Shown piece by piece: positions 24,676-42,139 of a stretch of DNA of 64,000 nt. The stretch's first letter is position 1; the number at the start of each line of letters is the position of its first letter. A program made the position numbers and the translations under genes. The stretch spans positions 1,798,001 through 1,862,000 of the forward strand of contig NZ_LR734808.1 of the NCBI RefSeq assembly GCF_902506655.1, in the 5' to 3' direction. The notes below the pieces were generated by a model. That model saw only the letters and a program-made list of their open reading frames with translations. It was not told where the DNA came from and did not search any database. Origin of the DNA: Marinoscillum sp. 108. Lineage in GTDB: Bacteria > Bacteroidota > Bacteroidia > Cytophagales > Cyclobacteriaceae.

Positions 24676-24888
24676 TTAGCTCACCTTCTCCGCAGTGTAA
24701 CCTGCCTTTTCTACCACAGCGATCACCTCCGCTTCAGAAGCACCGGCTGTTTCTACGGTCAGGATTTTGTTCGGATTCAAGATATCTACCTCCCACTTAG
24801 CTATGCCTTCGGCAGCATCCAAATGAGGAGTCACATTCGCAAGGCAGCCACTGCACTTGATCGTGGTTTTGAATTTTAATGTACTCAT
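24676..24888 (-). CDS. Heavy-metal-associated (HMA) copper chaperone, CopZ-like
   Basis: A 70-residue HMA-domain protein: LKFKTTIKCSGCLANVTPHLD has the CxxC metal site (C12 and C15), and the fold ends in VIAVVEKAGYTAEKV. Such proteins carry Cu(I) to P-type ATPases. It is the last gene of the leftward copA operon, after the reductase, and is followed by a terminator. Confidence 0.88.
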   Translation of the reverse strand: MSTLKFKTTIKCSGCLANVTPHLDAAEGIAKWEVDILNPNKILTVETAGASEAEVIAVVEKAGYTAEKVS

Positions 24889-24982
24889 CGTTCTTTTATT
24901 TTGATTGTTTTAAACTTGATTCAAAGTTCGCGCTATCGGAGCGCGCTTATATTACACTTTTACCGCTTTGGGTTGCATCATT

Positions 24983-26023
24983 TCATCCATACTGTAGCAC
25001 TAGCTTTTCGGATTGAGGAAAGCCAGAACACAGCAATACATACCCCCGCTCCACCTCATCATCCGGCAGGGCGTAGTTTGTTTTCATATTCAGTTGGCCG
25101 GATACCAACCTCACCTTACAAGCTCCACACATGGATTCTTTGCAGGAATGTGGCAGTCGGATCCCGGCATCCAGCGCCGACTTCAATACCGACTGGTTGC
25201 TCTCAGCCTTAAAAGTGATCGGCTCACCATTCAAATCTTTGATCTCCACCTGCGTATAGGCCTCTGGTTTGTCATCCCGGTTTTCAATGCCTGGCATCCC
25301 TGAGAAGGCCTCCATTTTGATCTGGTCTGCAGACAGGCCAAGGATGGTTAAAGACTCTACCGAAAGATTCATGAGCGCTTCTGGTCCACAGATGAACACC
25401 TCGGGGGTTTCCTTCCAATAGGCATCCACATACTTTTGAAAATCAAAACGGTTGAGCTTGCGGAAGAAGGTGTTTTCCTGCTTCTCCAGGCCCGCATCCT
25501 CTGCAGACAGGAAGTGCCTCACCTCCAGTCTTCCGGTGTACTTTCGTTCCAGATGATCGAGCTCTTTCTTAAATATGATCGATTCTGAGCTTCGGTTGGC
25601 ATAGAGCAGAGTGACCCGGCTTTCGGGTTCCTGCGCCAATATGGATTTCATCATGGCATACAGGGGCGTGATACCACTGCCTCCGGCCACCATCAGCACC
25701 CTTCTTGCCACTCCAAAGGTGGTGGTAAACCGGCCATTGGGCGGGCTCACCGATACCTCATCGCCTGCACGGAGTTGCTCCCCAATGAAATTGGAAGCCA
25801 GTCCACCCGCTACCTTTTTGATGGTAACGGATGGCGGCTCGCCAATAAACGAAGAAGAGGAAAATGAATATTGTCTTACTACTTCCTGACCATTGATCTG
25901 CAGGAAAAAATTCAAAAACTGACCAGGGAGATACTGCGCGATCGAAGGAGCATTTTCCAGCACCAGGGTAAATGCTTCCCTGGTTTCCTGAATGATCCTT
26001 TCAATTTTGACTCGTGTTTTCAT
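24983..26023 (-). CDS. Ferredoxin-NADP reductase-like flavoprotein with 2Fe-2S domain
   Basis: A 346-residue protein. FAD-binding beta-barrel (about 1-100) with RQYSFSSSS; NAD(P)-binding Rossmann domain (about 105-235) with LMVAGGSGITPLYAMMKSIL and FICGPEALMNL; a C-terminal plant-type 2Fe-2S ferredoxin (about 255-346) with CKESMCGACKVRL and CSGFP. This order matches phenylacetate/Hmp-like oxidoreductases. Lying between copA and the chaperone, 11 nt from copA, it probably supplies reducing power in copper handling, but the acceptor is not known. Confidence 0.9.
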   Translation of the reverse strand: MKTRVKIERIIQETREAFTLVLENAPSIAQYLPGQFLNFFLQINGQEVVRQYSFSSSSFIGEPPSVTIKKVAGGLASNFIGEQLRAGDEVSVSPPNGRFTTTFGVARRVLMVAGGSGITPLYAMMKSILAQEPESRVTLLYANRSSESIIFKKELDHLERKYTGRLEVRHFLSAEDAGLEKQENTFFRKLNRFDFQKYVDAYWKETPEVFICGPEALMNLSVESLTILGLSADQIKMEAFSGMPGIENRDDKPEAYTQVEIKDLNGEPITFKAESNQSVLKSALDAGIRLPHSCKESMCGACKVRLVSGQLNMKTNYALPDDEVERGYVLLCSGFPQSEKLVLQYG

Positions 26024-26034
26024 CGCCTTTGAAT

Positions 26035-28284
26035 TTAAATTTTAGATGCTTTCAGTCTAAGGCTATTGGCCACTACGGACACCGAGCTAAAGGCCATGGC
26101 GGCCCCGGCAATCATGGGATCCAATAAGAAACCATTGAATGGATACAAGACCCCAGCCGCAACCGGAATACCTATCAGGTTGTAGATAAACGCCCAGAAA
26201 AGGTTCTGACGAATACCCATGACGGTCTTGCTGGAGAGGTTGAGTGCTTTGGGAATGGACATCAGATCGGAAGTGATCAGGGTCATTTTGGCCACATCCA
26301 TGGCAATGTCGGAGCCTTTGCCCATGGCAATACTGACATCCGCCTGCGCAAGGGCATGGGAGTCGTTGATACCATCACCCACCATGGCCACCACTTTGCC
26401 CCGGGCCTGAAGTGCTTTCACGAAATCTGCTTTGTCCGAAGGCATCACTTCCGCTTTGAAATGCTGCAGCCCAACCTGCTCTGCCACGGCTGCAGCGGTT
26501 TGATGATTATCGCCTGTAAGCATATAGACCTCCACACCCCGATGCTGCAATGTCTGGATAGCTTGTCTGGAGCTGGCCTTCACCTGGTCTGCAATGGCCA
26601 GTACTGCCAGCACCTGCTCTTCATCCGCAAAATAAATGACCGTTTTGGCGTCTTGCTGTAGTCGGCCAGCCGCCTGAGTGAGCGGAAGGCTGATGCTGAT
26701 GTGATGTTCATCTATCAGTTTTCGGTTTCCTACAAGGTACAAGACCTCTCCGGACACCGCGCTGGCACCCCGGCCCGTGATGCTTTCAAAGGCCTCTATC
26801 TCCGCTGGCTGAATGTTATCGGCCTTCAGCTTATTTACCACGGCTTCCGCCAGTGGATGCTCGGAGACAGCCTCCAGACCTAGCAAAATCTGCATGGATC
26901 GATCCACGTTGCTTTCGCTGGTTCCCCAAATCATGTCGGTGACTACTGGTCTGCCTTCTGTGATGGTCCCTGTTTTGTCCAGGATCACAGCGTTTACTTT
27001 GTGAGCGAGTTCCAGGCTTTCGGCGTCCTTGATAAGGATGTTATGCTCTGCACCCTTGCCCACACCTACCATGATGGCCGTGGGAGTGGCCAGTCCAAGC
27101 GCACAAGGACAGGCGATGACCAACACCGCCACAGACGTCAGCAGGGCATGTGTAAAAGCATCATCTCCACCCACAATCATCCAGGTAATGAAGGTGATGA
27201 TGGAAATACCCATCACAATGGGTACAAAAATGCCTGCGATTTTATCGACCAGCTTCTGTACAGGAGCTTTGCTGCCCTGGGCTTCCTGTACCATCTTGAT
27301 GATTTGCGAGAGCAGGGTCTCACCGCCTACTTTCTCAGCTCTGAACTGAAATGAACTTTTTTGGTTGATGGTGCCGGCAAACACCTTGTCGCCCTTCGCT
27401 TTGGAAACGGCGATGGGTTCACCTGTGATCATACTCTCATCCACAAAAGATTCACCCCCGATCACTTCGCCATCTACCGGAATTTTCTCACCTGGCCTGA
27501 CTATGATGGTATAGCCCACCTGAACCGATGAAATGGGAATCTCTACTTCCTCCCCTTCAATCAAAGCCTTCAGGGTTTTCGGCTGAAGTCCCATGAGCTT
27601 TTTGATGGCGGATGAAGTATTGGATTTTGCTTTTTCCTCAAGAAGCTTACCCAACGAAATAAAAGTGATGATCACCACCGCCGCTTCATAGTACACATGC
27701 GGGTGGATGCCCCTACTATGCCAAAACTCTGGGAACAGGGTATTGAACAAGCTGTAAATAAAGGCTATTCCTGTACTCAGAGCCACCAAAGTATCCATGT
27801 TGGCTTTTCCATGTCTGGCTTGCTTAAATGCATTGATGAAGAAGGTTCTCCCAAACCAAAAAAGGATGGGTATGGTGAGCGCCAGTGAGATCCACCTTCC
27901 CTCGGTCCATTCCATAAAGAACATCCCAATGATGAACACAGGAAGTGTGAGCAGGGCAGACCAGATGGTTCGTTTTTTCACGTCCTGATAATGCTTCTGC
28001 TGAAGCTCCTGCTGCATTGCTGAAGGATCGTCCTCCCCCACAATGAGGTCATAACCGATGGATTGGACCGCCTGACGCAGGGTTTCCTGAGTGATTGAAT
28101 CTTCATACTCCACCAAAACCGAATTAGTAGCGAAGTTGACACTCGCTTTTTTCACACCCGGAGTGTGACTGATCATGGACTCCACACTGGAGGCACATGC
28201 TGCACAGGTCATCCCGGTCACCGGAAAGCTTTCCTTGATGACCTGATGAGATGTCGCGGATGATTTTTCTATTACCGTTTCCAT
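26035..28284 (-). CDS. copA: Copper-exporting P1B-type ATPase
   Basis: A 749-residue P-type ATPase. One N-terminal HMA domain with [12 protein letters not shown] (about 23-34); eight membrane helices; phosphatase motif TGEP; ion-site motif [10 protein letters not shown] (about 393); DKTGTITEG (phosphorylation Asp); [19 protein letters not shown] in the P domain. The CPC plus MetSer-type helix arrangement is that of Cu(I) exporters. It pumps Cu(I) from cytoplasm to periplasm. Downstream reductase and chaperone genes and upstream AraC-HMA regulators complete the operon. Confidence 0.95.
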
Positions 28285-28304: not shown

Positions 28305-28343
28305 CAAAATTATTCAGCCGGGGTAGTGCGATTGTTATACAAT
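28305..28343 (-). promoter_or_regulatory. Putative copA promoter and palindrome
   Basis: On the minus strand TAATTTTG (28312-28305) is an exact TAnnTTTG -7 element 20 nt before the copA ATG. Upstream lies ATTGT-TAT-ACAAT (28331-28343), a perfect 5-3-5 palindrome near the -33 region. It is a candidate site for one of the adjacent AraC-HMA regulators. No ideal -33 TTG is at standard spacing. Confidence 0.5.
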
Positions 28344-28355
28344 TCCGGCTATGGG

Positions 28356-28943
28356 TTACACCTTTTCATTGGAGTGATCCGGCACTATCAGGCCCTTACT
28401 CCTCTGAATCTGCTTGAAATGAGAAGGATTGAGGCCGGTCACCTTTTTGAATTGGGCAGAAAGGTGATGAGCACTGCTGTATCCTCTTTCGTAAGCGATC
28501 TGTGAGAGGGACTTGCCGGTGTACACAAGGGATTCCTTGACTACCTCTATCCGCTTTTCGATGTGATACTTTTCAATGGACTTCCCTTCCATTTGTGAGA
28601 ACAGCTCACTGAGTGTGTCGTAGTTCTGCATGAAATGCCGGGACAGACTTTCGGAGAGGGTAACACCCTGCTCACGGCCACTTCCTGCTGCTATCCACTG
28701 GTGAATGAATTCGCGGATTTCAAGAAATCTGGTCTCCCTCTTATCAGAAACCAGCTCAAACCCCAGCCCTGAGAGGATGGACCGAACTGTTGTTTTCTGC
28801 GGATCGTCTATAGGCTTGCAGAAGGTGACCTTCCCCAGGGAAATATCCCTGACAAACATTCCTGCCTTTTGCAGGCTTTCCCGGATAGTGAAAATGCAGC
28901 GACTGCAAACCATCCCTTTGATATTGACCTGAGTGCTTTCCAT
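28356..28943 (-). CDS. AraC-family regulator fused to an HMA metal-binding domain (second copy)
   Basis: A 195-residue protein. Residues 1-70 are an HMA-type domain with the metal motif GMVCSRCIFTIRESL (CxxC at 13 and 16); residues 95-195 are an AraC DNA-binding domain with LSQIAYERGYSSAHHLSAQFKKVTGLNPSHFKQ. The fusion suggests direct sensing of Cu(I) or another soft metal. It is paralogous to the next gene and lies 71 nt upstream of copA. An inverted repeat GTTCCAATTTT/AAAATTGGGAAC sits just upstream (28945-28972). Confidence 0.88.
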   Translation of the reverse strand: MESTQVNIKGMVCSRCIFTIRESLQKAGMFVRDISLGKVTFCKPIDDPQKTTVRSILSGLGFELVSDKRETRFLEIREFIHQWIAAGSGREQGVTLSESLSRHFMQNYDTLSELFSQMEGKSIEKYHIEKRIEVVKESLVYTGKSLSQIAYERGYSSAHHLSAQFKKVTGLNPSHFKQIQRSKGLIVPDHSNEKV

Positions 28944-29018
28944 CGTTCCAATTTTTAATCAAAATTGGGAACAATCTGCATTGGATGCATTACACAATCA
29001 CCCGGAAGGCTTACATGA

Positions 29019-29618
29019 TTATATGATCTGATCCAGCGGCTTCCTGGATTGGGTCTGTTGAATACTTTTCTTGAATTCGGTGGGTGACAACCCGATGATC
29101 TTTTTGAATTGATTGGACAGGTGCGCCACGCTGCTGAAACCCATCTTGTAGGCAATTTCTTTCACTGACAGCTCGTCGTAAAATAGAAACTCCTTCACTT
29201 TTTCCATCTTTTGGCGAATGATGTACTGCTCCAGCGTGATCCCTGCCATGCCTGAAAACAGGCTACTGAGATAGTTGTAGTCGTAATGGAGCTGGTCCGA
29301 CAGGTAAGCCGACCACTGAATGTGGGTATCGTAGGGATCACGATGATGAATGGTGTCAATCACCAGGGTCTTGATCTTCTCCAGCAACTGCACTTTACGA
29401 TCGTCGATTCGCTCAAAACCATTTTTGGCCAGTAGGTCATCCAATTGCTTCAACTCATCTCCTGACAGCTCTTTTTTGAGTTTCACTTCCCCCAAATCAA
29501 CAGATATAGGCTCTACCCCGATTTGCTCAAAAGCCTGCCTGACCACCATGACGCAGCGGGGGCAAACCATGTTTTTGATATGTAGCTGAGGGATTTCCAA
29601 GGTCATTCCAAATTGCAT
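29019..29618 (-). CDS. AraC-family regulator fused to an HMA metal-binding domain (first copy)
   Basis: A 199-residue paralogue of the neighbouring gene. The metal-binding region is IKNMVCPRCVMVVRQAFEQIG (CxxC), and the AraC domain is VKEIAYKMGFSSVAHLSNQFKKIIGLSPTEFKKS. The two copies share the same layout but differ widely in sequence, so they are old duplicates and may sense different metals or bind as a heteromer. First gene of the leftward copA-reductase-chaperone cluster. Confidence 0.88.
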   Translation of the reverse strand: MQFGMTLEIPQLHIKNMVCPRCVMVVRQAFEQIGVEPISVDLGEVKLKKELSGDELKQLDDLLAKNGFERIDDRKVQLLEKIKTLVIDTIHHRDPYDTHIQWSAYLSDQLHYDYNYLSSLFSGMAGITLEQYIIRQKMEKVKEFLFYDELSVKEIAYKMGFSSVAHLSNQFKKIIGLSPTEFKKSIQQTQSRKPLDQII

Positions 29619-31038: not shown

Positions 31039-31237
31039 TGATAATTGATTATGGCTATTTACTCTCTATAACCACGTCCTTATTGTTTTATCTGGCCAAT
31101 GTTAATAAACAGTGTTGAATCGGGGGTTAGATATGGAGCATTTCACAATGGAAAAAAGAAATCTCTTTCTCTGCGACAAAATTGTGCAAGCAATAGCCGC
31201 AATTGTATAAAGTGTACGATCTGGGGTCGTCAGAATT

Positions 31238-31258
31238 TTGTGAAAATAAATTTCACAA
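31238..31258. promoter_or_regulatory. Palindromic operator before the MFS pump
   Basis: TTGTGAAA-ATAAA-TTTCACAA (31238-31258) is a perfect 8-bp inverted repeat ending 2 nt before the start codon. A further half-site TTTCACAA lies at 31141-31148. Such placement suits a repressor blocking transcription or translation start. The matching regulator is not adjacent. Confidence 0.6.
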
Positions 31259-31260
31259 CT

Positions 31261-32679
31261 ATGTCAAATTCAATGTCATTAAACACAAGCTCGCTCTACG
31301 AGAAACGTTGGGCAGCTTTAGCGGTTCTGTGTACCGCACAGTTTATGGTAATCATGGATACCTCCATCATCGGGGTGGCCTTGCCTGCCATACAAAGTGC
31401 GCTGAACTACACCCCATCAGGACTACAATGGATCTTCAATGCCTATGTGATCGTGCTGGGCGGGATGCTGCTTCTTGGCGGAAAACTCTCCGACCTGTAT
31501 GGCTCCAAGAATGTATTTCTATGGGGTTTTGGAGTGCTCACACTCGCATCATTACTCACCGGCATGGCCTGGTCTGAAACCTCCATGAATGTGGGAAGAG
31601 CATTACAAGGACTAGGATCGGCCCTCATTGCTCCTGCTGCACTTAACTTGCTCATGAGCATTTTCACGGATCCCAAGGAACTGGGCAAGGCCTTTGGTTT
31701 CTGGGGAGCAGCCGCTGCAGCCGGTGGTTCTGCAGGCGTATTCCTCGGCGGTGTACTTACAGAGTATATGTCCTGGAGATGGGTCTTTTTCATCAACATC
31801 CCCCTGGGAATACTGGTGATGCTATTGGGTGTTTCACTGCTCACGAATGGAAGCAAGCTACGAGGCAAAATTGACTATTTAAGTGCCCTGCTCGTAACCG
31901 CCGCTACCATGCTGATAGTATACACGCTTGTCATGGTAGAGCAAAATGGATGGACTTCTTTAACAACCATTGGTCTGTTTGCCATTGCACTGGCACTACT
32001 GATCTTATTCATTGTGATCCAAAAGCGCTCCAAATCTCCACTGCTTCCGTTGAGCATTTTCAAAGCACCGAATTTGTCTGCGGCCAATCTGGTGATGGCG
32101 CTAATGGCGGGAGCCTGGATTCCCATGTGGTTTTATCTGAACTTATACCTCCAGCAAACCCTTGGCTACACCGCCTTTTGGTCTGGAGTGGCGCTACTCC
32201 CGATGACCATTGCCATCATGATCCTGATGGTGGGTGTGAGTGGCAAAATGATTGAACGGTTCGGAATGAAGAACAACCTGGTGGCTGGGCTAAGTGTGCT
32301 TACGGCATCACTGGTGTGGTTCTCGACTGTCTCTGTGGACGGAAATTTCCTTGTGGATGTATTGGGTGCCTCTTTACTGGGCGCTGTTGGGATGTCGCTG
32401 GCGTACATTCCGGGAACCATGGCCGCCATGTCGGGTGCCAAACCTGAAGAAACCGGATTAGCCTCCGGCTTGGTTAACACTACTTATCAGGTGGGTTCCG
32501 CTATTGGTTTGGCCATCGTGGTGGCGGTAGCCATTGCCATCACCAATGGACTGGCACCGGACGGAGAAGTAACTACTGAGTCATTAACTGCGGGTTTTCA
32601 GGGTGCGTTCCGCACGGCTGCCGTCATCGGTGTGCTTGGAACCCTGGTGGCCCTGGTTGGGATCAAATCAGGGAAGTAA
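31261..32679 (+). CDS. MFS drug efflux transporter, DHA2 (14-helix) family
   Basis: A 472-residue transporter with about 14 helices, starting at MSNSMSLNTSSLYEKRWAAL rather than at the upstream ATG at 31099, whose leader has no membrane or signal features and would overlap the operator. Motifs: FMVIMDTSIIGVALPAIQ (motif D1), GGKLSDLYG (motif A), GSALIAPAALNLLM, and GVFLGGVLTEYMSWRWVFFINIP (motif C region). Similar to EmrB/QacA-type proton antiporters. Convergent with the mercury module and separated by a terminator. Confidence 0.92.
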   Translation: MSNSMSLNTSSLYEKRWAALAVLCTAQFMVIMDTSIIGVALPAIQSALNYTPSGLQWIFNAYVIVLGGMLLLGGKLSDLYGSKNVFLWGFGVLTLASLLTGMAWSETSMNVGRALQGLGSALIAPAALNLLMSIFTDPKELGKAFGFWGAAAAAGGSAGVFLGGVLTEYMSWRWVFFINIPLGILVMLLGVSLLTNGSKLRGKIDYLSALLVTAATMLIVYTLVMVEQNGWTSLTTIGLFAIALALLILFIVIQKRSKSPLLPLSIFKAPNLSAANLVMALMAGAWIPMWFYLNLYLQQTLGYTAFWSGVALLPMTIAIMILMVGVSGKMIERFGMKNNLVAGLSVLTASLVWFSTVSVDGNFLVDVLGASLLGAVGMSLAYIPGTMAAMSGAKPEETGLASGLVNTTYQVGSAIGLAIVVAVAIAITNGLAPDGEVTTESLTAGFQGAFRTAAVIGVLGTLVALVGIKSGK

Positions 32680-32741: not shown

Positions 32742-32954
32742 TTAGCAATTGCAAGTTCCATTTTGCACCGGTGGGCACTTCTCACTCCCATAACTGCAGT
32801 ACACACAACAGTCGCCTTCTTTGGGTTTCAATACCTCATGACAGTTTTCACATTCATAGAAATATTGACATGCATCTGTTGGCATGGTTTCTTCTTTCTG
32901 ATGTCCGCATTTCGGACAGGTAATGGTTGATTTTAACTCTGCTGCTTTCTCCAT
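32742..32954 (-). CDS. GDCCVxC-domain protein of mercury resistance
   Basis: A 70-residue cysteine-rich protein starting MEKAAELKSTITCPKCGHQKEE; an in-frame start 8 codons upstream would overlap the MerTP stop. Motifs CPKCGH, CENCHEVL and GDCCVYCSYGSEKCPP are diagnostic of the GDCCVxC family found in mer clusters of Bacteroidota and Gammaproteobacteria. It probably binds Hg(II) or a thiol-metal; biochemistry not established. Last gene of the leftward arsR-merTP operon. Confidence 0.88.
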   Translation of the reverse strand: MEKAAELKSTITCPKCGHQKEETMPTDACQYFYECENCHEVLKPKEGDCCVYCSYGSEKCPPVQNGTCNC

Positions 32955-32955
32955 T

Positions 32956-33606
32956 TTATTGATCTTTTGGCTTTTCAATTACCGTATATCCTGTTTGATT
33001 GATGGCCTCTATGATGGTCTTTTCTTCCAGTCTTGAGGGCAAATACTCAATGGTGGCAGAGCCTTCAGTGTAGATGGCATCTACAGACTTTATCCCCGGG
33101 AGTGATCGAACCTCATGCTCAATGTGCGCCTCACATCCGGCACAAGTCATTCCTTTTACATCGAGTACAATCTTGTGTGTTTTCGTTGTGTCTTGTGAAA
33201 GGATAACTGAAGTATTTGGACTTGAGCCATTAGAGTAAAACATGCGCGAATAGCTTGGAAAAGCAAGCATCAAAGCGGCAAACGCAGTAACTATTCCGAG
33301 GAACTTTTTGGATTGCCAAAAAGACGGCTTTTCATCTGTTTCACAGGCGCATTCAATTTTTTCTTTGGTTCGTGGTTTAAGTTTCTGATACCAGGCGAAT
33401 CCTAATACGCCAATTGTCAGTGCGATTAAATAAGGTCTGAAGGGTTCCATCCAGGAGAATGTGGCTGCTATGCCACCAATACCAGCCAGCAATGAAAATA
33501 CAGGTGTGATACAACACAGCGAGGCTACAATTGCTGCAAACAATCCAGCGCCCGCACTTTTTGAGGACAAACTTGTCTGCCGTGAGGCATGGTTTGTAGT
33601 GCTCAT
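32956..33606 (-). CDS. merTP: Mercuric transport fusion protein MerTP
   Basis: A 216-residue MerT-MerP fusion. The first ~130 residues have three membrane helices; the mercury-binding vicinal cysteines are in IVASLCCITPVFSLL (helix 1), and CACETDEKPSF (a CxC pair) lies in the loop. The C-terminal HMA domain has GMTCAGCEAHIEHEVRSLPG. It takes Hg(II) across the inner membrane. No merA reductase is visible nearby, which is unusual. Stop and ArsR genes overlap by 4 nt. Confidence 0.92.
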   Translation of the reverse strand: MSTTNHASRQTSLSSKSAGAGLFAAIVASLCCITPVFSLLAGIGGIAATFSWMEPFRPYLIALTIGVLGFAWYQKLKPRTKEKIECACETDEKPSFWQSKKFLGIVTAFAALMLAFPSYSRMFYSNGSSPNTSVILSQDTTKTHKIVLDVKGMTCAGCEAHIEHEVRSLPGIKSVDAIYTEGSATIEYLPSRLEEKTIIEAINQTGYTVIEKPKDQ

Positions 33607-33977
33607 GATGTTAATTCTTTTTGATTTTGAATCGATAAGCTTTCCAGTACGGGTTTAATAATTTCCAGATTAGCCTCTACCAGTGAATAGAAGACCGTCT
33701 GACCAACCTTCTTATCTTTTACGAGCCCACCGTCTTTCAATTTTCGTAGGTGCTGAGAAACCCCGCCCACAGAGATATCCAGGATATCACTAAGATCACA
33801 GGGACACATTTCACCTTCTTTATGAAGCAGAAAAAGGATCTTCAGCCGTGCTGCATTTCCCGCCAAATTGAAAATTTTAGTAGTTAAATCCAGTTGTTCT
33901 TCCAGACGACTAAGGGTTTCCTTACACTCCTTTATTTGCACTGGATCTGCAAGTACTCTGATACATGTATTGCTCAT
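33603..33977 (-). CDS. ArsR/SmtB-family repressor of the mercury module
   Basis: A 124-residue winged-helix repressor: LKILFLLHKEGEMCPCDLSDILDISVGGVSQHLRKLKDGGLVKDKKVG. The CPC motif in the third helix is the usual soft-metal site (alpha3). It overlaps merTP by 4 nt and has two operators upstream (33987-34004 and 34030-34049). It would release DNA when Hg(II), or another thiophilic metal, binds. Confidence 0.92.
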   Translation of the reverse strand: MSNTCIRVLADPVQIKECKETLSRLEEQLDLTTKIFNLAGNAARLKILFLLHKEGEMCPCDLSDILDISVGGVSQHLRKLKDGGLVKDKKVGQTVFYSLVEANLEIIKPVLESLSIQNQKELTS

Positions 33978-34169: not shown

Positions 34170-34670
34170 TTAAAGCTTACCTTCTACCCTGCCGCACTTC
34201 AGCATCTTATCCCCAAAATATGGATTTCTGATTTCCTCAGACATACTCAGCCAGTTAGCGCCCGTGCCAAATGCCATTGGGCAATACTGGACATAAATCC
34301 CATCATTAGCGCCATTTGCTTTAAGCATAACAATGAGGCTGTCGCTGGCCTTTTTAAATGCTGTCCGCTGGGTTTCCACATCTTCACTGGTAGCAATGAC
34401 CTCTGCGGCCTTAATAATGTCCGTATTCCAGTTTTCAGAAGCTGCCGACTTAGCTAATTTTCCTGCGGCATTTTTGGCCTGATCTCTGTCGGTTTTTACC
34501 AGAGCATCTTTCAATATCATATAATCGGAGAGCGCACTGGATTGTGCCACAAGAACCTCCTCCAGCTCTGGAACAGCTGATACTTGTGACTCATTTTGTC
34601 TTTCATTGTTAGGATTGGAACATGCCATCAGCAAGGACACCAACCCAAGAGATAAGATGTATTTTTTCAT
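34170..34670 (-). CDS. DUF3347 lipoprotein
   Basis: A 166-residue protein starting MKKYILSLGLVSLLMACSNP; a lipobox (LLMAC) marks it as a lipoprotein. The body has EVLVAQSSALSDYMILKDALVKTDRDQAKNAAGKLAKSA and a conserved tail QYCPMAFGTGANWLSMSEEIRNPYFGDKMLKCG, the DUF3347 signature. The same domain is at the C-terminus of the adjacent CusB-like protein. A metal-chaperone role is likely, using His/Met/Cys at YCPMAF and LKCG. It lies 5 nt from the CusB stop, last gene of the operon. Confidence 0.9.
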   Translation of the reverse strand: MKKYILSLGLVSLLMACSNPNNERQNESQVSAVPELEEVLVAQSSALSDYMILKDALVKTDRDQAKNAAGKLAKSAASENWNTDIIKAAEVIATSEDVETQRTAFKKASDSLIVMLKANGANDGIYVQYCPMAFGTGANWLSMSEEIRNPYFGDKMLKCGRVEGKL

Positions 34671-34699
34671 TTTTACAAAATTTATATGGTTCATAATTA

Positions 34700-36478
34700 T
34701 TAAAGTTCTTCTTCTACATTCCCGCAGGAGAGCATGGCATCACCGAGATAGGGATTTAAAATCTTTTCAGAATCACTGAGCCAATAGGCTCCTCTATTGT
34801 TCATGGCCATGGGGCAGAACTGACGGAAGCCACTGGTTTCAATCTTGAATTTCTTAATCGTATGATAAAGCTGGTCACTCAGAGGAGAAAGCATCATTCT
34901 CATGGTTTCCAACTCGCTCCCTTTTTGAATGGCATTGGCAGCTGCCTTTAGCACAGTCAAATCCGCCATCCACTCCATATGGGCTTCGCCTTTTACCAGT
35001 TTCATATCCACTTTACCCAGTGATTCCAATAATGCTTTGGCCGTGGAGCTAGCCCTATCCGGATCTGCAGCAATCAATGCATCTTTTACCGGCAGATAAC
35101 TTTCAAACACTGACTTGATCTGGTTTTGGAAGGCCTTATCGGATTCATACTCCTTGTCTGAAACATTGATTTCAGAGTGGTTCATTTCCTTCGATTCTGG
35201 AGTAGTGCCGTGATTGTGCCCAGTCATGGCAGCTCCACCTTCCGGTGACATCATGCTGGGTTTGCCAGCCAACTGAGCTGCAGCATCCACGCTGAATGTG
35301 CCGTTTACAACAATCTCTTCACCTGCTTCCAACCCTTCTTTCACCACATAACTTTCTCCGAGAGATGGCCCGAGTGTTACCGTGCGCATACGGAAAGATA
35401 TGCTTTGATCACTGGCAGTTTTCACATAGACCACAGACTTTTTACCTGTCCACATCACAGCAGATTTGGGTACAATGAGCCCTTCTTTATTGGCGTGACT
35501 TGTCACACTCAGCACTCCTGAAGCAAACATTTCAGGCTTTAGTTGATAACCCGGATTATTCATCTCTACTCGTAGTTTGGATACGCGAGTCTTCGGATTG
35601 ATGACAGGATCTATGTAGGAGATTTTACCCGTGAATTGTTCACCAGGAAGTGAACTAATCGTAAATGAAACCGAAGCCCCTTCCCTGATCCAGGCCAGGT
35701 CAGATTCATAAGCATCAAACAACACCCATACATTTGACAGATCGGCGATCATGTAGATAGGTGCTCCCTGCTTGATGTAATCCCCAAGCATGACCAGCTT
35801 TTCCTTTACATAACCCGATCGCTCAGATCGGATGGGCAGGGTCTCTAGTGGTTTGCCATTAGCCAAAATCTGGTCGATTTGTGCATTCGTGAGCTTCCAG
35901 TTTGTAAGCTTCCTCTTGGCTGCAGCGAAGAGCTCAGGCTGCTTGTCTTTGATCTTTTGAGTCTCAAATAACTCCTGCTGAGCGGTAACTAACTCAGGTG
36001 AGTAGATAGTGGAAATCTCCTGGCCTTTTTGAACAAAATCTCCAGAGAAATTCACGTTCAATGTTTCCACCCGACCGGGAATGTGAGAGGCCTGGGTATA
36101 AACCAGTTTCTCATTCTCCATCACCTTCCCGTTTAGCCGAATCGTTTTGGTAATTTCACCAGCCCCCACTTTTTGGGTAACCACATTGGCCAACTTCAAC
36201 GCAGTTGGAGACATGTGAATAGCCATCGGATCGTCCATGCCCAAATCTGATTCAAGAGGAATCAGATCCATACCGCAAATGGGACAAGAGCCGGGTTCGT
36301 TCTTGCGGATTTGCGGGTGCATGGAGCAAGTCCAAACGCCATTTTCGTCAGCTACATGTTCGTGATCTTCGCTCATTTCTGAGGCGGGTGTTGAAGGCTT
36401 TAACATCCATCCGATCAAACCACCAATGATCAAGGTAAGGCCAATCAGCACATATTTATTTTGAAGTAACTTTTTCAT
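34700..36478 (-). CDS. CusB-type RND efflux membrane-fusion protein with DUF3347 tail
   Basis: A 592-residue adaptor. N-terminal membrane anchor (KYVLIGLTLIIGGLIGWML), then a heavy-metal-binding domain WTCSMHPQIRKNEPGSCPICG (about 49-70), the membrane-fusion body with alpha-hairpin and barrel (about 100-400), a His-rich linker (GHNHGTTPESKEMNHSE), and a C-terminal DUF3347 domain ending FCPMAMNNRGAYWLSDSEKILNPYLGDAMLSCG. It links the inner-membrane pump to the outer-membrane channel, and both end domains probably hand over Cu(I). Confidence 0.93.
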   Translation of the reverse strand: MKKLLQNKYVLIGLTLIIGGLIGWMLKPSTPASEMSEDHEHVADENGVWTCSMHPQIRKNEPGSCPICGMDLIPLESDLGMDDPMAIHMSPTALKLANVVTQKVGAGEITKTIRLNGKVMENEKLVYTQASHIPGRVETLNVNFSGDFVQKGQEISTIYSPELVTAQQELFETQKIKDKQPELFAAAKRKLTNWKLTNAQIDQILANGKPLETLPIRSERSGYVKEKLVMLGDYIKQGAPIYMIADLSNVWVLFDAYESDLAWIREGASVSFTISSLPGEQFTGKISYIDPVINPKTRVSKLRVEMNNPGYQLKPEMFASGVLSVTSHANKEGLIVPKSAVMWTGKKSVVYVKTASDQSISFRMRTVTLGPSLGESYVVKEGLEAGEEIVVNGTFSVDAAAQLAGKPSMMSPEGGAAMTGHNHGTTPESKEMNHSEINVSDKEYESDKAFQNQIKSVFESYLPVKDALIAADPDRASSTAKALLESLGKVDMKLVKGEAHMEWMADLTVLKAAANAIQKGSELETMRMMLSPLSDQLYHTIKKFKIETSGFRQFCPMAMNNRGAYWLSDSEKILNPYLGDAMLSCGNVEEEL

Positions 36479-36490
36479 TTCAGTAATATT

Positions 36491-37729
36491 TTATTGAGTA
36501 CCGCCCAGGATATAATCCAAATTAGCGAGGGCTATGAATAGCTTCGTTTTTGATTTAATTTCTAGTTTCTGATAGTTGAGTAGTTGCATCTGAATGCGCA
36601 GCAGCTCTACCAGGTCTTTTCCTGAATTGCCGAACTCCGAAACCAAGAGTGACTGAATTCGCTGTGTCTCTTCAATTTGTATTTCATAGAGATTCAGCAT
36701 TTCAATTTCACGCATCACATCATATTTCACGTTTTCAAAGGAGGCATTCAATTCATTTCTCGTGGATTGCGCCATGAGTTCAATGCTCTCTGTCTGAAGC
36801 TTATTCTCCTTCAAAGCAGCCTTATATTTCCTGCGGTACAGCGGAAGGGAAACAGTAATCATCGGCATGATGGCATCTTGTCCGTTTCCTGGAACATTCA
36901 TACCTGCCTGTCCGGCCGCCAAGTCTGTTCTTTCCGCCACGATGATGTAATCCAATCCCACACCCAACTTTGGCATGGACTGTTTTTCGATTGCCATATA
37001 CTGCTTTTCCTTAGACTGCTTTTTCAGTGTAATTTCCTTCAATAACGGGTGGTCGTTCCAATTTACCTGCTCAGAGTAGACGGGCACACTCACAGAATCA
37101 AATGGAGAAGTAAAAACCTCCATTGAGTCTGGCCGATTGAGGAGCTGATTGAAGGAAGCTGTCAAAGGTCTTTTCATTCCTTCAAGGAGTATGATTTCGG
37201 TTTCCATATCCTGAATCATGAGATCAACCCTGAGAACATCTGCCAGGCTGGTTTTACCATTCTCGTATTTTGAAGTGGCCAGGGTCTTCCATGATTTCAG
37301 GATATCCAGGTTCCCTCGTTGAATCGATAAGACATCCTCCAGCTCTACCAATGGGTAGTACGCTCTGGAAACCTGGAACCATAGTTTATTTTGTTCATCA
37401 ATGTATCGTTCGAAAGCAGCATCAGCTATAAGAGCTGTTGCTTCCCCCTGCACCTTCAAAGTCCCGAACCACGGAAACATTTGAGAGAGTGTAAACCTGG
37501 CCATCTGTCTCCCAACCCGTGTCTCGGTCATCCGACCAAATGCACTTACTGACAGTGTAGGATCTGGAAAACCTTTCACTTGAGTCACGCGCTGCAGGGC
37601 CGCCTCAAACTCCTTGTATTTGGACTGAAGCATGGGATTGTTTTCCGATGCCTCCTGTTGGTATTCCTGAAGCGTTTGTGCGCTAACAAGCGAACCCAAT
37701 AATAAGAATACTATAGTTAGATATCTCAT
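36491..37729 (-). CDS. TolC-family outer-membrane efflux protein (CusC-like)
   Basis: A 412-residue protein with a signal peptide (MRYLTIVFLLLGSLVSA) and two halves of long coiled helices with a short strand region, e.g. LQEYQQEASENNPMLQSKYKEF and MNVPGNGQDAIMPMITVSLPLYRRKYKAALKE, typical of TolC-type trimeric channels. It overlaps the start-stop junction with the RND pump gene by 4 nt. It completes the tripartite metal efflux pump. Confidence 0.9.
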   Translation of the reverse strand: MRYLTIVFLLLGSLVSAQTLQEYQQEASENNPMLQSKYKEFEAALQRVTQVKGFPDPTLSVSAFGRMTETRVGRQMARFTLSQMFPWFGTLKVQGEATALIADAAFERYIDEQNKLWFQVSRAYYPLVELEDVLSIQRGNLDILKSWKTLATSKYENGKTSLADVLRVDLMIQDMETEIILLEGMKRPLTASFNQLLNRPDSMEVFTSPFDSVSVPVYSEQVNWNDHPLLKEITLKKQSKEKQYMAIEKQSMPKLGVGLDYIIVAERTDLAAGQAGMNVPGNGQDAIMPMITVSLPLYRRKYKAALKENKLQTESIELMAQSTRNELNASFENVKYDVMREIEMLNLYEIQIEETQRIQSLLVSEFGNSGKDLVELLRIQMQLLNYQKLEIKSKTKLFIALANLDYILGGTQ

Positions 37730-40700
37730 CTCAATTTCCTGTTTTGGTTGTTAATCACCGTTTCTCGCCAGAAAGCCTGAAGGATCGGCACCACGAACAT
37801 GGTCATGATCTGAATGGCCATTCCACCAAAGGTCGGGATGGCCATTGGCACCATAATGTCGGATCCTTTACCTGTTGATGACAGTACCGGAAGCAAGGCG
37901 ATTATTGCCACCGCGGCAGTCATCATCGCAGGGCGTACTCGTTTTTTACCGGCTTCAAGTACCGCTGCTCTTACCTCAGGTATGGTACCTGGCTTCCGTT
38001 CCTCAAATACCTGATGGATGTACGTTCCCATGATCACTCCATCGTCTGTGGCGATTCCAAAAAGTGCTATGAAGCCTACCCAAACCGCTACACTCAGATT
38101 AATGGGGTGCATCTGAAATAGCTCTCGCATGTTGGTGTCTGAAATGGAGAAATCCAGGAACCAATCCTGACCGTACAGCCAGAGCATGATAAAACCTCCT
38201 GCAAATGCCACAAATACGCCTGAGAAATGGATTGATGAGGCAATGACCGTCTTGAACTGGAAGTAGAGCAGTAGGAAGATGACAATCAAACTGATTGGTA
38301 TCACAATAGATAGCCGCTTGATGGCGCGCACCTGATTTTCGTAGGTTCCTGAGAATTTGTAGCTAATTCCGGCCGGAACAATCAATTCACCTGAATCAAT
38401 TTTACCCAGAATAGCCTCTTGAGAGGCCTTTACCACATCCACCTCCGCAAAACCTGCTCGTTTATCAAACAGCACATAGCCAACCAGAAACGTCTCCTCA
38501 CTACGAATCATTTGTGGTCCTCTGACATATTCAAAATCCACCAGCTGCTTCATGGGGATTTGAGCACCAGTAGGTGTGGGGATCAGAATGTTGCCAAGTG
38601 ATTCGGGATCATCACGTAACTCCCGTGGGTATCTCACCCTTACAGGAAAACGCTCACGCCCTTCCACTGTAGAGGTGATTTTCATGCCCCCTATTGCCGT
38701 TTCGATAGTCTGCTGTACATCCTCAATGCTAAGTCCGTATCGGGCGATTTCATTCCTATTGATATTTAAGTGCAGATAAGGCTTGCCCACAATTCGATCA
38801 GCAAACACCGCTTCTGATTTTACGGAATGAACGTCTTTAAGAATGTTCTCAAGTTGGAAACCAAAATCCTGAATGGTCTTTAAGTCAGGACCATACACTT
38901 TGATTCCCATGGGTGCTCGCATGCCTGTCTGAAGCATCACCAATCGTGTCTCTATGGGCTGCAATTTTGGAGCTGAAGTCACGCCTGGTATTTTAGTCAC
39001 CCGGACTATCTCATCCCAGATGTCGTCTGGAGATTTAATTGATTCCCTCCAGTTTCGGAAGTATTGTCCTTTGAGGTCAGGGAGAAGATCAGAAGTGGAG
39101 ATATTAGCAGCCAGGATTTCCTCATTGGACAACGACTCACCTGATTTTAATATGAAATTTCCTTTCCCATCTACCTTAAATCGCTTGCGATGACCTTCTC
39201 CATCAATGACATACTCCGGCTTATAGTTGATAACATTTTCATACATGGAGATAGGTGCAGGATCAAGCGCTGACTCCACTCTGCCAAGCTTTCCCACCAC
39301 CATTTCCACTTCCGGGATTTGAGCCACTAACATGTCGAGCTGTCCAACCACCCTTCGGTTTTGTTCCATCCCTGCATGAGGCATGGAGGTAGGCATAAGC
39401 AGAAAGCTTCCTTCGTTCAATGAAGGCATAAATTCCGATCCGATACCCGGAAAGGTTTTATCCAGCGATTTCCAGGCTTGGGTTTCCTTTATCCCATCCC
39501 CTAAGAACCCAAAGGATTTACCAAATCCAATCCAGATGACAACACCCAGCAGAATAGTGAAGAACGGAAGCAACAAGAATTTGCCTTTGTTAACCAGACA
39601 CCATTTCAGAATGGGCTCATAAAAATGAACGACTGACAATAGTGCTCCCAGGATAATTCCAATGAGCCCCAGTACGAATAGATAGTTCACAGTAAGTGAG
39701 GTTTGAACACCTAAAGGCATCCATTCTTCAGCGAGAAAGAAGCTGGCAATAAACAGGGCCAAGGCTATATTGATATACTCAGGGAATTTCTTAAATCGCT
39801 CTGGCCATTTGCTTTCCAGCATGTTATTGAAACCAATAAGGCACAGTACCCCAGGAAGCCACATTTGAGTATAGACTACTAGCAGAATACCGGCAGTTAT
39901 GAAAGTGAAATTCCAGATGTTCCGAACGTTCTTCTTGTCGTATCGTATGCCGAAAATGAAATAAGCCAGCGTGGGCAACACAACAAGCCCAAGAACAAAG
40001 GATCCAAGCAGGGCATACGTCTTTGTGAAAGCCAAAGGCTTGAAGAGCTTGCCTTCTGCCGATTCCATAGCGAAAACAGGGACGAAGCTGACAATTGTTG
40101 TAGCCAGTGCGGTTGTAATAGCGGATGCTACCTCTTTTGTAGCCTCATAAATGACCCGGAGTAAGTCTTTTCCTTTCACTCCGTGGTTTTCAGGCATTTC
40201 CAGATAGCGTATGATATTCTCCACGAAAACAATCCCTACATCCACCATTACCCCAATGGCAATAGCTATTCCTGAAAGAGCGACAACATTAGCGTCCACA
40301 CCAGTATATCGCATGACTATGAATGTCATCAATACGCCTACAGGTAGCAGGCTCGAAATAATGATCGATGCACGAAGATTGAGTAGCAGCACCAGCACAA
40401 CGATGATGCTGATCAGCACTTCATGAGATAAGGCTGTTTCCAGCGTACCAATAGTTTCATGGATCAACTGAGTGCGGTCGTAGAATGGAACAATAGTCAG
40501 TTGAGATTCTGTACCATCTGTTAATGTTTTCTTCGGCAAGCCGGGAGCAATCTCATTGATCTTGGCCTTTACATTATTGATCACCTCCAAAGGATTGGAA
40601 CCGTATCGGGCCACCACCACACCTCCAACCACTTCAGCACCTTCCTTATCGAGTGCTCCTCGGCGGGCTGCAGGCCCAAGGGATACTACTGCTACATCCT

Positions 40701-41529
40701 TGATTCGGATAGGGACATTGTCCTGAACTGACACCACGGCCTTCTCTATGTCGGCCACTGATTTGATATAGCCTAAACCTCTAACCAGGTACTCTGCCTG
40801 GTTGATTTCAATCGTTTTGGCACCTACATCACGATTCGACTTGCGAACAGCGTCCATCACCTTCATTAGTGGTATGCCGTAGGCTTTTAAAGCATCTGGA
40901 TTCACATCGATCTGGTATTCCTGAACGAATCCACCGATTGAAGCAACTTCTGAAACTCCTTCTACCGCATTCAGGCCATACTTCACATAGAAGTCCTGAA
41001 CCGTTCTGATTTCATGCAAATCCCAGCCGCCGGTAACATTGCCTTCCTTATCACGCCCTTCAATGGTGTACCAAAACACTTGCCCCAAAGCAGTCGCGTC
41101 CGGACCCAAGGTGGGTCGAACGTCATCAGGGAGTAGTCCTGAAGGAATCGAATTTAGCTTTTCAAGGATTCGGGAGCGAGACCAATAAAATTCAATTTCT
41201 TCATCGAAGATGATATTGATCATTGAAAACCCGAAAATGGAGGAACTTCTGATCGATTTCACTCCTGGGATACCCAATAAATAAGTGGTCATTGGGTAGG
41301 AAATCTGATCTTCAATGTCCTGTGGAGAGCGTCCCGGCCATTGGGTAAACACAATCTGCTGATTTTCACCGATATCAGGAATCGCATCCACAGGAACCGG
41401 ATCCTTTGGGAGAAAACCTGTATTCCAGCTAAAAGGGGAAGTAACAATCCCCCACGCTACCAGCATGATCAGTATGAGTACCGTCACCAAACGGTTCTCA
41501 AGGAAATATTTTATGATTTGATTTAGCAT
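37726..41529 (-). CDS. CusA-type heavy-metal RND efflux pump with extended inserts
   Basis: A 1267-residue RND permease, about 220 residues longer than classic CusA. Conserved features: QWPGRSPQDIEDQISYPMTT, IRSSSIFGFSMINIIF, ALSGIAIAIGVMVDVGIVFVENI (proton relay helix 4), SFLLMPTSMPHAG, and VGFIALFGIATDDGVIMGTY. The extra length lies mainly in added hydrophobic segments around residues 540-640 (ITAGILLVVYTQMWLPGVLCL and following) and a soluble insert near residue 770-840 (KPEYVIDGEGHRKRFKVDG). It exports Cu(I)/Ag(I) from the periplasm using proton motive force. First gene of the Cus operon. Confidence 0.95.
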   Translation of the reverse strand: MLNQIIKYFLENRLVTVLILIMLVAWGIVTSPFSWNTGFLPKDPVPVDAIPDIGENQQIVFTQWPGRSPQDIEDQISYPMTTYLLGIPGVKSIRSSSIFGFSMINIIFDEEIEFYWSRSRILEKLNSIPSGLLPDDVRPTLGPDATALGQVFWYTIEGRDKEGNVTGGWDLHEIRTVQDFYVKYGLNAVEGVSEVASIGGFVQEYQIDVNPDALKAYGIPLMKVMDAVRKSNRDVGAKTIEINQAEYLVRGLGYIKSVADIEKAVVSVQDNVPIRIKDVAVVSLGPAARRGALDKEGAEVVGGVVVARYGSNPLEVINNVKAKINEIAPGLPKKTLTDGTESQLTIVPFYDRTQLIHETIGTLETALSHEVLISIIVVLVLLLNLRASIIISSLLPVGVLMTFIVMRYTGVDANVVALSGIAIAIGVMVDVGIVFVENIIRYLEMPENHGVKGKDLLRVIYEATKEVASAITTALATTIVSFVPVFAMESAEGKLFKPLAFTKTYALLGSFVLGLVVLPTLAYFIFGIRYDKKNVRNIWNFTFITAGILLVVYTQMWLPGVLCLIGFNNMLESKWPERFKKFPEYINIALALFIASFFLAEEWMPLGVQTSLTVNYLFVLGLIGIILGALLSVVHFYEPILKWCLVNKGKFLLLPFFTILLGVVIWIGFGKSFGFLGDGIKETQAWKSLDKTFPGIGSEFMPSLNEGSFLLMPTSMPHAGMEQNRRVVGQLDMLVAQIPEVEMVVGKLGRVESALDPAPISMYENVINYKPEYVIDGEGHRKRFKVDGKGNFILKSGESLSNEEILAANISTSDLLPDLKGQYFRNWRESIKSPDDIWDEIVRVTKIPGVTSAPKLQPIETRLVMLQTGMRAPMGIKVYGPDLKTIQDFGFQLENILKDVHSVKSEAVFADRIVGKPYLHLNINRNEIARYGLSIEDVQQTIETAIGGMKITSTVEGRERFPVRVRYPRELRDDPESLGNILIPTPTGAQIPMKQLVDFEYVRGPQMIRSEETFLVGYVLFDKRAGFAEVDVVKASQEAILGKIDSGELIVPAGISYKFSGTYENQVRAIKRLSIVIPISLIVIFLLLYFQFKTVIASSIHFSGVFVAFAGGFIMLWLYGQDWFLDFSISDTNMRELFQMHPINLSVAVWVGFIALFGIATDDGVIMGTYIHQVFEERKPGTIPEVRAAVLEAGKKRVRPAMMTAAVAIIALLPVLSSTGKGSDIMVPMAIPTFGGMAIQIMTMFVVPILQAFWRETVINNQNRKLR

Positions 41530-41608: not shown

Positions 41609-42022
41609 TCATATAAGGAAAACCTGATGCAGAACCTGATAGTCCGGACTGCCAAGTTGTGGGGAGGTATCAACCGGAATGGGTTGATCAAAAGTCTCCT
41701 CAAATTCTATAGAATAAAGGATAGTCGCTATAGCTATAGCCACGAAGAATTGAGCTGCTTCATTAGAGACTTCCTTGTTTAAAGTCTCATCAACCTCTGC
41801 AGAGACATACTGATTCTCACAGCATGGGGATTTAGAGAAGTGTGGAGAGTCATGCTCTGCTTCGGGCATATCCATCATGCCCATACCACAATCCAGGTGC
41901 TTTTCTCCAAACATCAATTCACTTACTATCGCACGCCCACCGCAAAAGTGAGTTCCAAAGGTGATACCCAGGTTTCCGAGTAGCAACATGAAGATAAGCG
42001 ATATGGAAGTGACCTTTTTCAA
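41609..42022 (-). CDS. HYC_CC_PP-family small secreted protein
   Basis: A 137-residue protein from a TTG start, MKKVTSISLIFMLLLGNLG; a longer frame begins at TTG 42064. Landmarks are FGTHFCGGRAIVSEL, CGMGMMDM, SPCCENQYVS and the end PQLGSPDYQVLHQVFLI, which match the HYC_CC_PP family of Bacteroidota proteins tied to metal transport operons. Probably a periplasmic metal-binding protein. It lies upstream of, and on the same strand as, the Cus pump, 79 nt away. Confidence 0.8.
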   Translation of the reverse strand: MKKVTSISLIFMLLLGNLGITFGTHFCGGRAIVSELMFGEKHLDCGMGMMDMPEAEHDSPHFSKSPCCENQYVSAEVDETLNKEVSNEAAQFFVAIAIATILYSIEFEETFDQPIPVDTSPQLGSPDYQVLHQVFLI

Positions 42023-42139
42023 CCTTACAAATATACGGAAAGCTTGAAACAGAGATTTACACAATAAAAGGATAGAGTTACATGATTATAAGAGAATCTC
42101 CAGAGGAAGGGAAATAAGACCCCCATAGCTGAGGCTCTC

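Follow-up and report, generated by a model that had tools for sequence, protein, structure and literature searches.

Organisation and domains of the regulator pair

The window analysed here, a stretch of 64,000 nucleotides from Marinoscillum sp. 108 (contig NZ_LR734808.1), carries two adjacent minus-strand genes for regulators that join an N-terminal HMA domain to a C-terminal AraC-type domain, as judged from profiles and predicted fold. P2 (29019-29618) encodes 199 amino acids with the loop IKNMVCPRC, and P1 (28356-28943) encodes 195 amino acids with the loop IKGMVCSRC; they are referred to below as N-type and G-type regulators, respectively. On the same strand lies copA (26035-28284), a Cu-type P1B ATPase with an HMA domain of its own (TIGR01511 score 604.5 bits, cut-off 397). 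The first-pass annotation had described side-by-side reading frames combining a CxxC HMA domain with an AraC helix-turn-helix (HTH) upstream of copA, and this description proved correct, both in its exact coordinates and in the presence of the domains.

P1 and P2 share 34% identity across 184 amino acids. Their AraC halves are certain, with Pfam HTH_18 matches at 1.7e-15 and 2.9e-17, and both proteins have the C-terminal two-HTH domain that defines AraC/XylS regulators. The HMA half is less conspicuous in single proteins, scoring 15.9 bits in P2, under the Pfam cut-off of 24.8, and going unreported by Pfam in P1; HMA membership (PF00403) emerges instead from family profiles. A profile of 21 family members matched the ATP7B HMA domain at 3.1e-13 and CopZ at 3.6e-5 over positions 2-62, with YesN/AraC domains following at 74-180, and a profile of 12 P1-type proteins matched ATP7B HMA at 1.1e-13. 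The CxxC metal loop by which the HMA superfamily is recognised is present in both P1 and P2.

AlphaFold models (pLDDT 91.9 and 90.6) show a ferredoxin-like beta-alpha-beta-beta-alpha-beta head, with the first AraC helix starting straight after it. Among the Foldseek matches, residues 73-190 of P2 align with AraC domains at Z scores up to 14.7, and residues 9-72 align with GolB, Atx1 and CopZ at a Z score of about 7, a value that ACT-like folds likewise reach (7). Since ACT-type folds equal the chaperones for the P2 head, it is the sequence profiles that carry the argument for an HMA domain.

Distribution and subfamilies of HMA-AraC regulators

With P2 as query (E ≤ 1e-14), 142 of the 296 Bacteroidota genomes sampled were found to contain a family member, and with P1 as query 50 of the 60 genomes of the window's family; genome and member counts here and below include related sequences, one clade being a set of non-independent cases. 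Plasmids of Hymenobacter, Runella and other genera also bear members (30 records), which carry AraC family or helix-turn-helix annotations. It had been suggested that chaperone-type folds rarely serve as sensor domains: the HMA head is indeed likely to be the sensor of an AraC regulator, but at 142 of 296 genomes the arrangement is not rare. The fusion thus apparently constitutes a widespread family without earlier description, no paper on HMA-AraC regulators having been found in the open-access literature, from which subscription journals are mostly absent.

A total of 153 full-length members were gathered from 140 loci and the window, out of 165 hits before those with profile scores below 100 were dropped, gene calls being longest ORFs. 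Eighty of the 140 loci were found through the peptide patterns IK[NG]MVCxRC and SS[VA][AQH][HY]LSxQF, which biases CxRC counts there; the other 60, drawn from roughly 98 listed places and holding 68 members, are free of CxRC selection. Sorted by the letter preceding MVCxRC, the 153 members comprise 122 N-type proteins including P2, 12 G-type including P1, 10 Y-type (SxRC) and a few others. In the phylogenetic tree, 11 of 12 G-type rows, P1 included, were grouped at an SH-aLRT support of 98, and the Y-type rows occupied one side of a branch with a support of 94.

P1 belongs to one old subfamily ('IKG...') and P2 to another ('IKN...'), and genes of the two are found repeatedly in the order N-G-copA. 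Eight close pairs were identified (the window, L072, L103, L148, L149, L150, L153 and L169), in all of which the N-type gene lies at most 350 bp upstream of the G-type gene on one strand, followed by copA; at L084 and L151 the two genes are wider apart in unchanged order. A further branch, reading VKNMACxSC, was seen at L190, L200, L252 and L256, with no metal genes near the members at L190 and L200; the L252 protein (VKNMACESC), which lies outside the 140-locus set, has a next gene that is ChrA-like by eye.

Copper genes around the regulators

Several further copper-related genes accompany copA in the window. A CopZ-like HMA protein of 70 amino acids with a CxxC motif is encoded at 24676-24888 (-), and a DHA2/EmrB-type MFS pump at 31261-32679 (+), its start being placed at 31261 because a longer reading frame from 31099 would take in its own promoter. 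An HYC_CC_PP family gene (41609-42064, -) probably starts near 42022, because the listed start at 42064 lies upstream of its -7 type box. Behind it follow the cus genes (34170-41529, -), consisting of CusA/CzcA (37726-41529, -), what we take, by eye, to be an outer-membrane factor (36491-37729, -), a CusB-like protein (34700-36478, -) and, named in the same presumptive way, a DUF3347-like protein (34170-34694, -). Directly behind copA, a PaaE-like FAD/NAD/2Fe-2S oxidoreductase is encoded at 24983-26023 (-); five of the 11 G-type genes have a relative of it nearby, and the enzyme is perhaps a copper or quinone reductase.

The association with copA anticipated by the first-pass annotation extends well beyond this genome. 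Outside the window, a P1B ATPase lies no more than five genes away from 86 of the 151 members; all of these ATPases bear the Cu-type motif, and in 57 cases the ATPase is the immediate next gene. Such a neighbour was counted for 72 of 121 N-type and 10 of 11 G-type genes; for the Y-type, H-type and other genes the figures are 0 of 10, 1 of 4 and 3 of 5, respectively. In the set free of CxRC selection (68 genes), an ATPase was near 21 of 42 N-type, 8 of 8 G-type and 0 of 9 Y-type genes, and any copper-type cluster was near 30 of the 42 N-type genes; the half of these N-type genes that lack a neighbouring ATPase count against a copper role. Across 91 regulator-ATPase pairs, 84 ATPases share one 10-letter CPC motif, two have another CPC motif and five read CPHALGLA[VI]P, motifs that we take to be of copper type; CPCALVIS, presumably the zinc/cadmium type, was found in none of the 91. 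Gene context and motif conservation make copper the candidate metal of the HMA-AraC family.

A chromate link was considered and rejected: chrA lies just upstream of P2, yet no gene of the 140 loci matched the window's ChrA at 1e-10.

A predicted operator upstream of copA

Regulator-copA intergenic regions display a common layout. When spaced T[AG][TC]AA words were counted in 51 such regions, 31 held a pair at 21 bp, against a mean of 0.5 and a maximum of 3 in 100 shuffles; another peak lay at 30 bp (15 regions). Alignment on the repeat gave the consensus AAATCNTATAAATC..TT.CCAAAATTNTGTAA, followed at a constant distance by a -7 type box that contains TTTG. Twenty of the 51 promoters show no pair with the strict core, many of them displaying, by eye, the repeat with another core; G-type loci were compared by eye as a possible separate operator class. 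The candidate operator is thus probably a 21-bp direct repeat, AATNNTRYAA-N11-AATNNTRYAA, with TTTG 25 or 26 bp further on.

In the 2.29 Mb of the 140 loci, exact sites numbered 50 and sites with at most one mismatch 141, whereas the reversed pattern gave 2 and 16, respectively. TTTG follows in 107 of the 141 sites, at 26 bp in 85 and at 25 bp in 22. The genes downstream are copA (59 sites, a count that is partly circular because the pattern was derived from copA promoters), a 245-amino-acid HMA protein (11), 70-amino-acid CopZ-like proteins (10), HYC_CC_PP genes (7) and G-type regulators (7). In Bacteroidota, the -7 box reads TAnnTTTG, and the predicted direct repeat would adjoin this core promoter, as is usual for AraC/XylS operators; its second half-site would lie over the place of the -33 box, where that of a class-II activator is expected.

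Five sites with at most one mismatch lie in the window, whereas shuffled versions averaged 0.01 and none of 100 shuffles reached five. The predicted copA operator, AAAGGTGTAA-N11-AATTGTATAA (28335-28365, -), overlaps the P1 stop codon with its first half and is followed, at the family's fixed spacing, by the -7 type box TAATTTTG (28305-28312, -). The P1 operator (28990-29020, -; one mismatch) overlaps the end of P2, with TTTG at 28960-28963, and that of the CopZ-like gene (24952-24982, -; one mismatch) has TTTG at 24922-24925. The MFS pump is preceded by a site without mismatches (31180-31210, +; TTTG at 31237-31240), and the HYC_CC_PP and cus genes are headed by one with a single mismatch (42057-42087, -), whose -7 type box TATATTTG (42028-42035) is one base closer than usual. 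At this stringency, the window search returned no site upstream of P2, of the ArsR-MerTP operon or of chrA.

The palindrome ATTGTTATACAAT at 28331-28343, put forward earlier as the binding site, is present as letters but overlaps only one half-site of the direct repeat. It was discarded as a candidate: the nearest relative, L148, keeps the half-site ATTGTATAAC and not the other arm, and it is the direct repeat that recurs.

A site precedes the regulator gene itself in 4 of 121 N-type cases, against 7 of 11 G-type cases; P1-type genes are therefore predicted targets, and P2-type genes mostly are not. The same counts bear on the proposal that P1 and P2 sense different metals. The 34% identity of the pair and the exchange of N for G before MVCxRC would fit such a division, but the CxRC ligands, the copper neighbours and the operator are common to both, and no zinc/cadmium-type ATPase motif occurs in the 91 pairs. 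As P1-type genes lie near Cu-type ATPases (10/11) and under the operator type of copA (7/11), two metal specificities are unlikely, and we regard this as the least probable of the readings weighed here. The main refinement of that idea is a proposed standing copper sensor, P2, accompanied by a copper-induced second regulator, P1.

Occurrence of the predicted operator in the genome and the phylum

The window's own genome contains four exact copies of the pattern, located before the MFS gene, two further HYC_CC_PP genes and a gene for a 212-amino-acid protein of unassigned kind. With one mismatch allowed, 14 sites were found against 7 for the reversed pattern, so weak sites outside the window are unreliable.

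A phylum-wide search for the pattern followed by TTTG at 26 bp, with up to one mismatch, found it in 78 of the 142 genomes with the family and in 12 of the 154 without it, with 320 against 14 sites. The remaining 64 family-bearing genomes, among them most of the taxonomic family f23, had no site at this stringency, and much of the excess comes from a single genus, g13, whose 17 genomes hold 201 sites. In this genus, N-type members precede HMA proteins, with the operator between them, and Y-type members lie beside PAS-type kinases, some of them with the operator upstream of themselves. The genes inspected downstream of the g13 sites, some of which were named by eye, encode Dps/ferritin-like proteins, MlaE, AI-2E transporters, and outer-membrane proteins and lipoproteins. 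An operator reserved for copper genes was accordingly dismissed: stress genes carry it in g13, which makes the operator by itself a less certain sign of copper control.

Y-type proteins (KYMVSxRC) lack the first metal cysteine, their loop being SxxC. The g13 stress-gene sites are probably under this clade, whose members would control a general stress regulon through the same operator; the simplest view is that one DNA-binding specificity is common to a family whose sensor part has diverged. It could also be argued that the family as a whole senses thiol or envelope stress rather than metal, copper genes being one output among others. The SxRC clade beside PAS/CheB-CheR-type kinases and the operator before stress genes in related genomes would agree with this. 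Loss of the first cysteine, however, goes with loss of the copper genes (0/10), although these proteins form one clade and thus represent one event and one observation, and we consider a family-wide stress sensor very improbable. Copper sensing through the CxRC loop, with the Y-type clade as a derived exception, is the reading retained below.

Y-type members were recorded at L142, L177, L180, L187, L188, L192, L198, L203, L206, L207, L251, L253, L255, L258, L261 and L266-L268, and several lie beside PAS/CheB-CheR-type kinases, response regulators, and CsbD- or Dps-like genes (by eye). An almost identical promoter, AATTATATAACGTTTCTTTTTTATGCTGTAA...CATCTTTG, was seen in three g13 species (G021, G170 and G206).

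Relation to known regulators and copper sensors

The two-HTH C-terminal domain of P1 and P2 resembles that of AraC, MarA and SoxS, and a 21-bp direct repeat over the -35/-33 region recalls araI1-I2, the half-sites of which are also spaced by 21 bp. They differ from AraC in the sensor, an HMA domain of about 65 residues without a long linker in place of the cupin arabinose domain. With Atx1, CopZ and the HMA domains of Cu-ATPases, the N-terminal domain has the fold and the CxxC metal loop in common; in P1 and P2 this head is fused to a DNA-binding domain, and its loop reads MVCxRC, where the usual HMA metal loop is MTCxxC. Ada likewise sets an N-terminal metal/cysteine domain on an AraC-type domain, with zinc and methyl-transfer chemistry serving DNA repair; 1u8b, which we take to be Ada, was among the structure matches of the P2 model.

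Being AraC/HMA proteins, P1 and P2 do not belong to the MerR-type CueR group, and the CsoR domain (PF02583) is absent from the families matched in them. CsoR is, like them, a copper-linked one-component regulator, but it is a repressor with a different fold. The metal domain of CopR from Pyrococcus furiosus is of the TRASH type, not HMA. CopR resembles P1 and P2 as a copper-sensing one-component regulator, in this case an archaeal one (PMC7830388). CueR, similarly, is presented in a survey of marine bacteria as a one-component copper-responsive activator of copA (PMC10141476); its fold and operator are unrelated to those of P1 and P2. For the Bacteroidota among its 76 bacteria, this survey reports two-component and ECF sigma-factor homologues only, and no one-component copper regulators (PMC10141476).

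Other candidate sensors were sought in the 296 genomes. CsoR-family hits occurred in 85, mostly from one taxonomic family (f17) without HMA-AraC proteins, so that 9 of the 142 genomes with the HMA-AraC family had such a hit against 76 of the 154 without it, most of the hits stemming from f17. The cut-off of the CueR model (TIGR02044, 147.4 bits) was reached in none of the 296 genomes, a few dozen MerR proteins scoring about 100-138 bits. In the window's genome, no CsoR-family hit and no CueR above the cut-off were found, only weak MerR hits.

Proposed mechanism and significance

Taken with the computed domains, family, pairing and predicted operator with its spacing and targets, these observations make it probable that P2 and P1 are copper-responsive activators, in which the HMA domain would be the sensor and the AraC domain the effector, with P2 as the standing Cu(I) sensor and P1 as a copper-induced second regulator. 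We infer here the nature of the ligand (Cu(I)), activation rather than repression, occupancy of the sites, and the separate roles of P1 and P2. P2 would be present without induction, and binding of Cu(I) to its CxRC loop would convert it into the activating form. Activated P2 would then occupy both half-sites of the 21-bp repeat, immediately upstream of the -7 box and over the -33 place, and recruit RNA polymerase as a class-II activator, turning on copA, the CopZ-like protein, the MFS pump, the HYC_CC_PP and cus genes, and P1. Copper might change the DNA-bound state through a Cu-bridged pair of HMA domains or through release of a contact between the HMA and DNA-binding domains. P1, once induced by copper, would act on the same class of site and tune the response, as an amplifier or as a brake.

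The braking role deserves separate consideration, since P1, induced by P2 under copper, might occupy the 21-bp repeats without activating and so damp the response. Such negative feedback would accord with the operator before 7 of 11 P1-type genes and with their faster evolution, as might be expected of a dispensable modulator: in each of the 45 pairs of loci compared, the G-type proteins show lower identity to one another than the N-type proteins do (mean 41% versus 54%). Against it, P1-type proteins retain the CxRC loop and both HTHs, and we consider a negative-feedback P1 fairly unlikely.

An obligate heterodimer of P1 and P2, with one protein per half-site, seems a weaker candidate still and is rather unlikely. 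The N-then-G order is fixed on one strand in all eight close pairs, and the distance ranks of the partners match (Spearman 0.63, from non-independent pairs), as obligate partners might be expected to show. Most N-type loci, however, have no G-type neighbour (11 G-type against 121 N-type genes) and 86 of the 121 nevertheless have a site; P1 itself, moreover, lies behind the operator, so that no pair would exist before induction unless expression were basal. P2 acting alone as the standing sensor, with P1 joining after induction, remains the preferred reading.

On a broader view, for and against which we see the case as evenly balanced, HMA-AraC proteins would form a new structural family of metalloregulators, and in many Bacteroidota they would be the principal one-component copper sensor of the cytosol: a chaperone turned transcription factor, whose duplication gave a standing sensor and a partner induced by copper, while another branch, having lost its metal ligand, took up general stress regulation through the same operator type. 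The family, its predicted operator and its targets offer a testable candidate for the missing one-component copper sensor of Bacteroidota, and the operator provides a way to predict copper regulons across the phylum. The CxRC and SxRC loops form a natural series in which to follow how a chaperone fold becomes a switch.

Elsewhere in the window, a mercury-type operon (32742-33977, -) encodes an ArsR-family regulator, a MerTP fusion and a GDCCVxC protein, and the segment 47176-51294 (+) contains tandemly repeated pairs of genes, named by eye, for outer-membrane-like proteins of about 150 amino acids and STAS-like proteins of about 140.
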